NCBI RefSeq assembly: GCF_014837165.1
Contig: NZ_JACSPM010000001.1
Span: 1,198,304 to 1,262,303 of the forward strand
Length of the DNA stretch: 64,000 nucleotides
Direction of reading: 5' to 3'
Source of the DNA: Microbacterium gallinarum
GTDB taxonomy: Bacteria; Actinomycetota; Actinomycetes; Actinomycetales; Microbacteriaceae
The number at the start of each line of letters is the position of its first letter. Positions within the stretch are counted from its first letter, which is position 1. Below the pieces are notes generated by a model. It saw only the letters and a list, made by a program, of their open reading frames with translations, searched no databases and was not told the origin of the DNA. The translations under genes and the position numbers were made by a program. Shown one piece after another: positions 56,616 to 59,285 of this stretch.

Positions 56616-56769
56616 CCTCCAGTCGTCAGCGCGGGTCAAGCGACGGTCGAAGCGCCGGGAGATCTTGCTCTCACGCCGCCGTGCAGGGGCGGCAGGATGC
56701 CGATTGCCCCGACCGTTTGCCCGCCGCGCGCAGGCGCTACGCTGTGGCCAGCTCGCCGAAGGAGTCGTC

Positions 56770-57237
56770 ATGCTCGGTCACCACCGCGTATCCGTGCTCA
56801 TGCTCACCCTGGCGGGGCTCGCCGCGCTGAACGGGTGCGCGCCTGCTCCGTCCAGTGCGGAGGGCGGGTTCGGGCTCCCTCGTCTGCCGGCCGCTGAGGC
56901 TGAAGGCATCGCGACGGACGCGGAATCGCTCGAGGGCGCCCTGCAGGTGGGGCCGAACGGATGCTTCCTCTTCGCCGTACCCGGTGACTCCGCGGCCCCA
57001 GCGCATGGCACGTGGATCGTGTGGCCCGAGGCCGCCGAGCAGGACGGTGCTGCGGTGGTGCTCGCGGACGGCACACGGCTCGGCGACGGCGACGCGCTCA
57101 CAGGCGCGGGCGAGGTGGTCGGACTTGAGGCGCTCCCTGATGGGATGAGCGACAGCTCGTACTTCGGATCGTTCGGGCGCTTCTGCGGTGCAGACGAGCG
57201 TCGTGTTCTCGTGCTGACGAGCATGACAACCGACTGA
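56770..57237 (+). CDS. Small lipoprotein of unknown function
   Basis: 155 residues. Signal peptide RVSVLMLTLAGLAALNGC ends in a lipobox (LNGC). The remaining 130 residues (PNGCFLFAVPGDSAAPAHGTWIVWPEAAE and GRFCGADERRVLVLT) show no family I recognise; two Cys (in PNGCFL and RFCGAD) could form a disulfide. GAAGGAG (56758-56764) precedes the ATG; TACGCT (56738-56743) is a likely -10 box. It lies just upstream of the IS481 element. Confidence 0.72.
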   Translation: MLGHHRVSVLMLTLAGLAALNGCAPAPSSAEGGFGLPRLPAAEAEGIATDAESLEGALQVGPNGCFLFAVPGDSAAPAHGTWIVWPEAAEQDGAAVVLADGTRLGDGDALTGAGEVVGLEALPDGMSDSSYFGSFGRFCGADERRVLVLTSMTTD

Positions 57238-57292
57238 CTGGCCGCCCGAAAGCGCTCGAATCACGCCCTCGCGGCGTGCCCGCGAGCGCGCG

Positions 57293-57296
57293 CTAG
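57293..57296. repeat. Left CTAG target-site copy of the IS
   Basis: CTAG immediately left of the element. The right copy lies at 58368-58371. Target CTAG with duplication is known for IS481 elements. Confidence 0.72.
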
Positions 57297-58367
57297 CTGT
57301 ACTGACCCGGATCGTTGTTGACGTAGGAGAGACCTCCGGGGTCGAGTTGGAGCTGTCTAGGTTCCCTCGAGTCCACGGAGGTCTCTCGTGTCCCACGCTA
57401 ATGCCCGGTTGACTCCTGCCGGCAGGTTGATCATGGTCCAGCGGATCCAATCTGGGCGCCCGGTCGCGCATGTGGCTGCGGAGATGGGTATCTCCCGCAC
57501 GGCGGCGTGGCGGTGGTGGCGCCGCTTCCGGGAGCAAGGACCGGCGGGTCTGATCGACCGGTCCAGCGTGGCCCGGTCGCATCCGGGTCGCACGACGGTG
57601 TGTGTGGAGACGCGGGTGTTGATCATGCGGCATCTCAGCCGCCGTGGGCCGGTGTTCATCGCGGGCAGGCTGGGCATGCACGCCTCAACCGTGGGGCGGG
57701 TGCTGCACCGCCACCGGGTGCCGCTGCTGCGCGAGCTGGATCCCGTCACGGGCAGGATCATCCGCGCGACTCGGGCCACCGCGGTGCGCTACGAGCATGA
57801 TCACCCCGGGTCGTTGATCCACGTCGACGTGAAGAAGCTCGGCAAGATCCCTGCCGGTGGTGGGTGGCGTGCGGATCCGACCCAGAGTGTCGCCGTTCAC
57901 CGGACCTCGCATCTGAAGGTCGGATACGACTACGTCCACACCGCGATCGATGACCACTCCCGGGTCGCTTACGCCGAGATCCACGACGACGAGAAGGGGG
58001 CCACCGCCGCCGGGTTCTTGGATCGAGCTGTCGCGTTCTACGCCGCCCTCGGCGTGAGGATCGAACGAGTCATCAGCGACAACGCGTTCGCCTACCGCCA
58101 CTCCACCGCGTTCCGCGACGTGCTCCACGCGCACGGCATCACCCAGAAGTTCATCCGCCCGCACTGCCCCTGGACCAACGGGAAAGTAGAACGCCTCAAC
58201 CGCACCCTCGCCGTCGAGTGGGCCTACGCACGCCCCTGGACCTCGAACAGCGAACGCGCCGCAGCCTTGCCCACCTGGCTCGACCACTACAACCTAGACA
58301 GACACCACCTCGGCATCGGAGGCCAAGCCCCCATCGACCGAATCAACAACGGTCGAGGTCAGTACAA
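57297..58367. mobile_element. Intact IS481-family insertion sequence, 1071 bp
   Basis: Terminal inverted repeats TGTACTGACC...CGTTGTTGA occur at the left (57298-57321) and inverted at the right (58343-58366), matching at all but a few bases. A single transposase gene fills the element. The element sits between two CTAG copies (57293-57296, 58368-58371), the target reported for IS481. The ends, IRs and reading frame are all intact, so it appears recently acquired and potentially active. The CTAG at its right end provides two stop codons. Confidence 0.9.
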
Positions 58368-58371
58368 CTAG
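57388..58371 (+). CDS. IS481-family transposase (DDE)
   Basis: 327 residues: an N-terminal HTH (GRLIMVQRIQSGRPVAHVAAE, ISRTAAWRWWRRF) and a second HTH_38-type segment, then the retroviral-integrase-like core. The acidic triad fits LIHVDVKKLGKI (first D), IERVISDNAFAY (second D) and WTNGKVERLNRTL (E). GTG 57388 has GGAGG at 57377-57381. The stop TAG (58369-58371) lies outside the element, in the target CTAG, so the frame has no stop of its own until it reaches flanking DNA. Confidence 0.94.
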   Translation: MSHANARLTPAGRLIMVQRIQSGRPVAHVAAEMGISRTAAWRWWRRFREQGPAGLIDRSSVARSHPGRTTVCVETRVLIMRHLSRRGPVFIAGRLGMHASTVGRVLHRHRVPLLRELDPVTGRIIRATRATAVRYEHDHPGSLIHVDVKKLGKIPAGGGWRADPTQSVAVHRTSHLKVGYDYVHTAIDDHSRVAYAEIHDDEKGATAAGFLDRAVAFYAALGVRIERVISDNAFAYRHSTAFRDVLHAHGITQKFIRPHCPWTNGKVERLNRTLAVEWAYARPWTSNSERAAALPTWLDHYNLDRHHLGIGGQAPIDRINNGRGQYN

Positions 58372-59285
58372 CCGCCGAGGACGACGTTGCGGGGCTCCTC
58401 GCCCGCCAGCATCCGATCGATCTGCGAACGGACGAGCCGGGCGATGCGCGGGCCCATCGCCGAGGACGCACCCCCGACGTGCGGCGTGACGAGCACGCCG
58501 GGAAGCGACCAGAGCGGATGCCCCGGCGGCAGCGGCTCCGGATCGACGACGTCGATCGCTGCACGAACCCGGCCGCGGCGCACGTGGTCGACGAGTGCAT
58601 CGGTGTCGACGAGCGACCCGCGCCCGACGTTCACCACGAGCGCGCCGTCGGGCAGAGCCGCGAGGAAGGCATCGTCCACGATGCCCCGCGTCGCGTCGCC
58701 GCCGGGCAGGGTGAGGATCACGATCTCGGCCGCGCCGAGGAGGCTCGGCAGCTCGTCGACGCCGTGCACCGGCATCCCGTCCTCTTCACGTGCTCTGCTC
58801 GCGACCGCCGTCAGCTGCACCTCGAACGGTGCCAGCCGCGCGGCGACTGCCTTGCCGACGCCGCCGTATCCGAGCAGCAGCACGCGCCGGTCGGCGAGGC
58901 TCTGCGTGAAGACCGGCTGCCAGCGTCCGGCGGCCGTGTCGACCGCGAACCGGTCGAGGTGACGCTGTGCTGCGATCGCGAGTCCCACCGCGAGCTCGGC
59001 CGTCGACGTCTCGTGCACGGTGGCCGCATTGGCGAATGTCAGTCCGCGCGGGAGCACCTCCTCGACGCCCTCGTAGCCGATCGACTGGCTCTGCACGAGA
59101 CGCGTCGGCACGCCTTCGAGGCGCGCGAGCACCGTCGCCATCTCCATGTAGGGCGGCACGACGATGTCGAAGCGCGGGCGAGGCGCCGGCCCATCCATGG
59201 GCCACACGACCAGGTCGACATCGGCGGGCAGCGCGCCCAAGTCTCCGGCCAGCTTCTCGGTCGGAACGCTCACGGTAAGAGTCAC
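58368..59285 (-). CDS. D-isomer specific 2-hydroxyacid dehydrogenase
   Basis: 305-residue NAD(P)-dependent oxidoreductase. The Rossmann motif LLGYGGVGKAVAARL is near residue 150, with the catalytic Arg and Glu in VVNVGRGSLVDTDALVDHV and VDPEPLPPGHPLWSLPGVLVTPHVGG, the latter holding the conserved His. It reduces 2-oxoacids or oxidises 2-hydroxyacids such as glyoxylate; substrate unknown. GTG 59283-59285 is preceded by TACCGT (59292-59297) at 6 nt. Its stop codon (TAG) is the same CTAG that borders the IS element on the right. Confidence 0.91.
   Translation of the reverse strand: MTLTVSVPTEKLAGDLGALPADVDLVVWPMDGPAPRPRFDIVVPPYMEMATVLARLEGVPTRLVQSQSIGYEGVEEVLPRGLTFANAATVHETSTAELAVGLAIAAQRHLDRFAVDTAAGRWQPVFTQSLADRRVLLLGYGGVGKAVAARLAPFEVQLTAVASRAREEDGMPVHGVDELPSLLGAAEIVILTLPGGDATRGIVDDAFLAALPDGALVVNVGRGSLVDTDALVDHVRRGRVRAAIDVVDPEPLPPGHPLWSLPGVLVTPHVGGASSAMGPRIARLVRSQIDRMLAGEEPRNVVLGG

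Follow-up and report, generated by a model that had tools for sequence, protein, structure and literature searches.

How can a mobile element occupy the stop codon of a gene and leave the encoded protein unchanged, and where does a transposase gene lacking a stop codon of its own come to its end? Both questions are raised, in compact form, by an IS481-family insertion in Microbacterium gallinarum. It lies in a window of 64,000 nucleotides (the whole stretch of DNA that was analysed, to which all positions refer), where an initial annotation had pointed to one CTAG as the source of the stop codons of two converging genes. The account favoured here, with a probability of about 0.9 for the whole, comprises insertion at CTAG, a stop shared by two genes, a target preference leading to gene ends, probable purging of other insertions, and a hairpin in the transposase leader; its insertion and shared-stop part is based on the sequence and on one relative, the genome G017, with a site close to the empty one.

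The element and the two converging genes

The following features are involved:

57292..57297, no strand: left target copy GCTAGC (read directly from the sequence)
57298..57321, plus strand: left terminal inverted repeat, starting TGTACTGACC (inverted-repeat pair I1)
57388..58371, plus strand: IS481-family transposase, 327 aa, its last codon partly and its stop wholly in target DNA (reading frame, profile matches)
58343..58366, minus strand: right terminal inverted repeat (pair I1)
58367..58372, no strand: right target copy ACTAGC, its first base unlike that of the left copy (read directly)
58369..58371, plus strand: transposase stop TAG, within the right target copy (sequence reading)
58368..58370, minus strand: dehydrogenase stop TAG, inside the same right-hand CTAG (sequence reading)
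58368..59285, minus strand: D-isomer-specific 2-hydroxyacid dehydrogenase, 305 aa from a GTG at 59285, a start of our choice (reading frame, profiles)
56665..57237, plus strand: convergent frame upstream of the element, judged by eye to resemble a lipoprotein, start provisional (frame list; alignment of the left flank with G017 at 90%)

Between the target copies, with their CTAG tetramers at 57293-57296 and 58368-58371, the element spans 1069 bp (57298-58366), holds one gene and is bounded by terminal repeats of the TGT...ACA type (TGTACTGACC...GGTCAGTACA), which an inverted-repeat search returned, flanks included, as a pair of 30 nt with 87% complementarity. The two hexamers agree in five of six bases (CTAGC in each, preceded by G on the left and by A on the right). 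CTAG had initially been taken as the inserted target, which holds for the site of insertion but not for the size of the duplicated unit, which is the six-base NCTAGN; the A in the right copy is probably a later change, as the base before the corresponding tetramer in G017 is G, like that of the left copy.

The transposase matches profile NF033577 with 298 bits (cut-off 224) as well as PF13011, PF00665 and PF13683 above cut-off, an integrase-core match being among these; the source genome (14 contigs) contains a single match to the integrase-core profile. Together with the size of about 1 kb, the TGT...ACA repeats and the NCTAGN duplication (five of six bases), this places the element in the IS481 family. 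Its reading frame is free of stops from 57388 to the element edge and ends at the TAG within the target; the last codon, AAC, consists of one element base and two target bases, and the C-terminal residue is thus partly target-encoded. The view of the initial annotation that the transposase has no internal stop and relies on host DNA therefore stands, as do all of its coordinates for the CTAG copies and for the TAGs of the transposase (58369-58371) and the dehydrogenase (58370-58368).

On the other side of the element, the upstream frame, which has no Pfam match in a profile search, ends in TGA 55 bp ahead of the left CTAG. What the locus looked like before insertion is indicated by G017, which encodes the closest dehydrogenase (96% identical) among 295 sampled genomes of the genus, drawn from a larger group, and in which no relative of the transposase was found at E<=0.001. 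The DNA of G017 aligns with both window flanks, which meet there at the insertion point, and its dehydrogenase has identical C-terminal residues and, in the corresponding place, a TAG as its stop. It had been claimed that target duplication preserved the host stop, and this relative without the element supports the claim. As a comparison with an empty site it is informative in part: the flanks meet and the TAG is in place, but the tetramer is CTAC, one base from CTAG, the gene ending GGG-TAG rather than GGC-TAG as in the window. With CTAC in G017, an exact empty GCTAGC site was not seen; since both window copies read CTAG, the target was CTAG at the time of insertion.

TAG is an unusual end for this gene. 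Among the best 30 dehydrogenase loci (the window included) from 219 genomes with a match, 26 end in TGA and four in TAG, with a CTAG end in two of the four, the window and locus L128. This prevalence of TGA would fit a stop created by the insertion, the dehydrogenase having formerly ended further on and been cut short, a reading made very improbable by the TAG of G017 at the aligned position (unless the element was precisely lost there) and by the many of the 30 loci that end right after an NVVLGG-like motif.

The favoured course of events, then, is that an IS481-family element inserted at a GCTAGC whose CTAG already carried the TAG of the dehydrogenase, and duplicated the hexamer, the right copy coming to end both converging genes. 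With its frame open to the element edge, the transposase takes its stop from this copy, and the dehydrogenase keeps its own. The palindromic nature of the target had been credited with making such an insertion safe; what saves the host stop is the duplication of the tetramer, and the contribution of the palindrome lies elsewhere. As CTAG is its own reverse complement, an element in either orientation and a gene on either strand meet a TAG, and the arrangement works both ways round.

Target-derived stops among relatives

Whether the transposase stop usually comes from the target was assessed in 161 elements with both ends placed, the window's included, which are 45-100% identical to the latter; most were taken from genomes of the genus and the rest from other actinobacteria. 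The genus search matched at least 149 of 295 genomes, of which part was taken, best matches first; at strict cut-offs, a family search matched 3 of 398 genomes (the source genome included) and a phylum search 1 of 396 (the source genome alone), so the sample rests mainly on the genus. Matches had to start by residue 60 and extend to residue 290, 11 loci were removed as duplicates of longer ones, and one insertion was kept from each set sharing the same flanks; from 175 loci, 161 had both ends and equal flanking tetramers, and 160 passed the context filter. L016, which ends in a target TAG at a gene stop, is wrongly absent from these numbers and would add one to the count of target-derived stops and one to that of insertions at gene stops. 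L208, being without ends, was excluded, and several others were left out: L034, which adjoins an N and whose frame continues for about 350 bases; L078, ending in GCTATC, with its frame continuing (contig edge); L079, with a TGA stop from CCTGAT; L047, with CTAG at the right end only; and four copies from Corynebacterium pacaense (L096, L098-L100), with broken matches though with CTAG on both sides.

The stop is supplied by the target in 138 of the 161 elements (136 TAG, 2 TAA); this is the usual condition, not a universal one. The targets concerned are CTAG in 135 cases, CTAA in two and TTAG in one, and in all 138 the last residue tracks the first target base (G with Ser, 46; C with Thr, 45; T with Ile, 30; A with Asn, 17). 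Reliance on the target explains both the differing last residues and the missing own stop in the transposases of these IS481 elements. Perfect six-base duplications flank 137 of the 161; the others differ in the first base only (10), the last only (8) or both (6). A donor base carried along was considered as the source of a differing first base; the numbers (10 first versus 8 last) give no clear bias. Three copies from M. lacticum, L049, L050 and L039, lie at the off-consensus targets CCTAAC, GCTAAG and GTTAGA, each perfectly duplicated over six bases and each still giving a stop.

In 22 of the 161 elements the stop is internal, a TGA within the right repeat whose first base lies 12 or 15 bases in from the element's right edge; in one further element (L097) the frame exits and stops 93 bases beyond. 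The 11 clusters with an internal stop form one group in a tree built from representatives of 52 clusters (support 100/98), requiring a single change, the direction of which depends on the root, placed here by midpoint only. This sister group comprises L020-L031, L108 and further loci. Members with a stop of their own had been named beforehand as a sign that the arrangement in the window is coincidental, the element merely abutting a CTAG; they do occur, but as a single group, and coincidence does not follow from them. Such an explanation can draw on the 22 elements with their own TGA, yet it is refuted for the element of the window by its open frame, without an in-frame stop before the target, and it leaves unexplained a stop at the same target position in 138 of 161 relatives with the preceding residue tracking the target base; it is given hardly any weight.

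Gene ends as insertion sites

For the 160 insertions, empty sites were rebuilt computationally, and genes were predicted by a simple program that relies on codon usage and had been trained on this DNA. When tried on an annotated Microbacterium plasmid stretch of 40 kb that overlapped slightly with the training data, it recovered 39 of 39 annotated stops and made one extra call. Sixty-six insertions lie at a called gene stop (65 at CTAG, 1 at TTAG), 82 are intergenic and 12 are inside genes, which supersedes a first, smaller count of 77 insertions (29, 38 and 10, respectively). Background CTAGs from 800 kb of arbitrary stretches of 19 genomes, mobile elements left unmasked, fall into 25 at stops, 91 intergenic and 40 inside genes (n = 156). 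The resulting odds ratios are 3.68 for stops versus the rest (p = 9.5e-7), 2.93 for stops versus intergenic sites (p = 9e-5) and 0.24 for sites inside genes (p = 1.5e-5). The direction holds when the CTAGs flanking the insertions serve as reference (46 of 347 at stops), and with one count per transposase cluster (51 clusters) stops account on average for a share of 0.51 (bootstrap 0.40-0.62). At stops, 36 insertions follow the host gene and 30 converge with it, without strong bias.

In a stricter test, with matching done locus by locus, 43 insertions lie at stops versus 27.8 expected when all sites are considered (p = 0.0001), and 38 versus 28.7 when sites inside genes are left out (p = 0.006; elements with target-derived and with internal stops taken together). 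Split by type of stop, the latter version yields 10 versus 4.6 for the internal-stop group (p = 0.00025) and a non-significant 28 versus 24.1 for the target-stop group (p = 0.14). In the single genome of M. lacticum DSM 20427, a close relative with roughly 80% identity to the window's element is present in about 40 copies (L035-L065, L071, L085, L104-L107). There, no clear excess at stops was seen (8 of 41 versus 3 of 11 background CTAGs, just 11 sites). Set against the CTAGs in their flanks, the copies of the close clade show none either (7 of 36 at stops versus 7 of 62, p = 0.37), and 7 of 36 copies examined lie within called genes; the share of 8 of 41 compares with 58 of 119 elsewhere (p = 0.0009). 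Enrichment at TAG stops, which the initial annotation had proposed to test, is thus found overall, but it is not seen in M. lacticum and falls short of significance in one stricter test.

Why gene ends should be favoured may be explained in the first place by the target itself. In the 800 kb, CTAG occurs 0.195 times per kb versus 2.76 expected from composition, and it is found at 27 of 712 called gene stops; it is thus rare, yet frequent at gene ends in the sampled genomes. When C closes one codon and TAG follows as the next, CTAG in that frame is possible solely at the end of a gene, and an element specific for a tetramer so distributed is steered there by sequence alone. As the counts show, target preference in this way sends many insertions to gene stops, and selection against damaging ones probably removes many others; the scarcity of insertions within genes is as purging predicts. 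That the transposase requires a stop does not account for the excess, as the internal-stop group, with 17 of 22 usable insertions at gene stops, is the most concentrated there. Retention of harmless insertions probably accounts for the excess that remains.

It could also be supposed that the insertion machinery itself favours CTAGs at the ends of transcription or translation beyond their availability, for which the excess over intergenic CTAGs could be cited, as could the internal-stop group with its 17 of 22. Such active targeting is considered unlikely: selective retention requires no new activity, and the lack of a clear excess among the M. lacticum copies, which we assume to be young, is what filtering would lead one to expect. 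If indeed young, these copies favour retention over targeting. The comparison offers a testable account of how, in genomes rich in GC, preference for a four-base target that is avoided inside genes could lead an element to safe sites.

The transposase leader and known systems

A second peculiarity concerns the region ahead of the transposase start, for which inverted-repeat pair I2, folding and cluster comparison predict a hairpin:

57327..57341, plus strand: predicted 5' arm of the leader hairpin, containing CCTCC
57373..57387, plus strand: predicted 3' arm, with the Shine-Dalgarno sequence GGAGG, just ahead of the GTG start

The predicted fold has a z-score of -2.67. A complementary five-base core is present upstream in 51 of 52 clusters, and at least nine contiguous pairs can form in 48 of the 51, numbers that are biased towards pairing, the 5' arm having been chosen as the best among matching places, and that come from related clusters; when the leaders of 50 clusters were shuffled and searched likewise, nine pairs or more arose in 4 of 2500 trials. 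Of the 306 cells that make up the outer six pairs, 287 are paired; when the arms were reshuffled 2000 times, the mean was 218 and the highest value 240. At several pairs A-T stands in place of G-C on both arms. Pairing of the Shine-Dalgarno sequence with the upstream arm, by which the leader would hide it, is thus predicted and accompanied by strong covariation.

A motif like GAGCTGTCTAG in the hairpin loop (57342-57372) recurs in the leaders of relatives, and GTCTAG occurs within the first 125 bases in 24 of the 52 cluster representatives. An Rfam search returned two sub-threshold microRNA matches and nothing else.

Structured transposase leaders that hide the ribosome binding site are described for IS200 (PMC3196728) and ISPpu9 (PMC8450116), and by analogy with them the likely role of the hairpin would be to block translation of transcripts that enter the element from the gene next to it. 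Such a role would suit an element frequently found directly behind a gene. With the Shine-Dalgarno sequence hidden in transcripts starting upstream, read-through from the neighbour should not raise transposase production. The model needs an internal promoter for the transposase; a promoter scan of the leader recognised none, with 0.0 expected, and could hardly have found one.

Taken further, the IS481 elements of GC-rich actinobacteria might be adapted to gene ends, with a target serving as a safe address, possibly active targeting, restoration of the stop and a covarying hairpin silencing read-through, the own-stop group having kept the address; this broader idea is doubtful, and is offered tentatively.

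The principle underlying the feature has precedents. ISLxc2 and ISLxx4 of Leifsonia xyli, reported in 2008, resemble the element of the window in belonging to the IS481 family and in having transposase stops in host NCTAGN; unlike here, preservation of a host-gene stop is not described in the portion of that report available (PMC2516522). In TnRErm46/ISRe46 of Rhodococcus equi (2019), also with an IS481-family transposase and NCTAGN duplication, the right-hand TAG ends the transposase and the target TAG keeps host stops, for example that of parB; the difference is that there the host stop described lies on the left copy and cargo is carried (PMC6794481), whereas in the window one right-hand CTAG ends two converging genes. 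A target-derived transposase stop and a preserved host stop are therefore already published in these two reports, and the feature in the window is a real, new instance of a published principle. The six-base target NCTAGN is given for IS481 and IS1002 of Bordetella in PMC3053399, after Stibitz 1998; that report also mentions a copy of IS481a at CCTAAC, the same target as that of the M. lacticum copy L049. IS1121 and IS1122 of Clavibacter (58-59% identical; names from plasmid annotation), the sole elements to bear names in 15 of the 99 plasmid records that matched, appear to resemble the internal-stop group (for example L023) by identity and by a match end at residue 307. As regards the leader, IS200 and ISPpu9 share with the window's element a structure hiding the ribosome binding site; they belong to other IS families, and the hairpin of the window is supported by comparison only. 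Limited literature searches, giving weak evidence of absence from partial texts, found neither a count of IS481 insertions at gene stops nor a Shine-Dalgarno hairpin for IS481. To these known systems, the present comparison adds a group with its own stop, counts of insertions at gene ends and a covarying leader, and, in the locus itself, a compact case of a mobile element able to occupy the stop codon of a gene with the protein unchanged.
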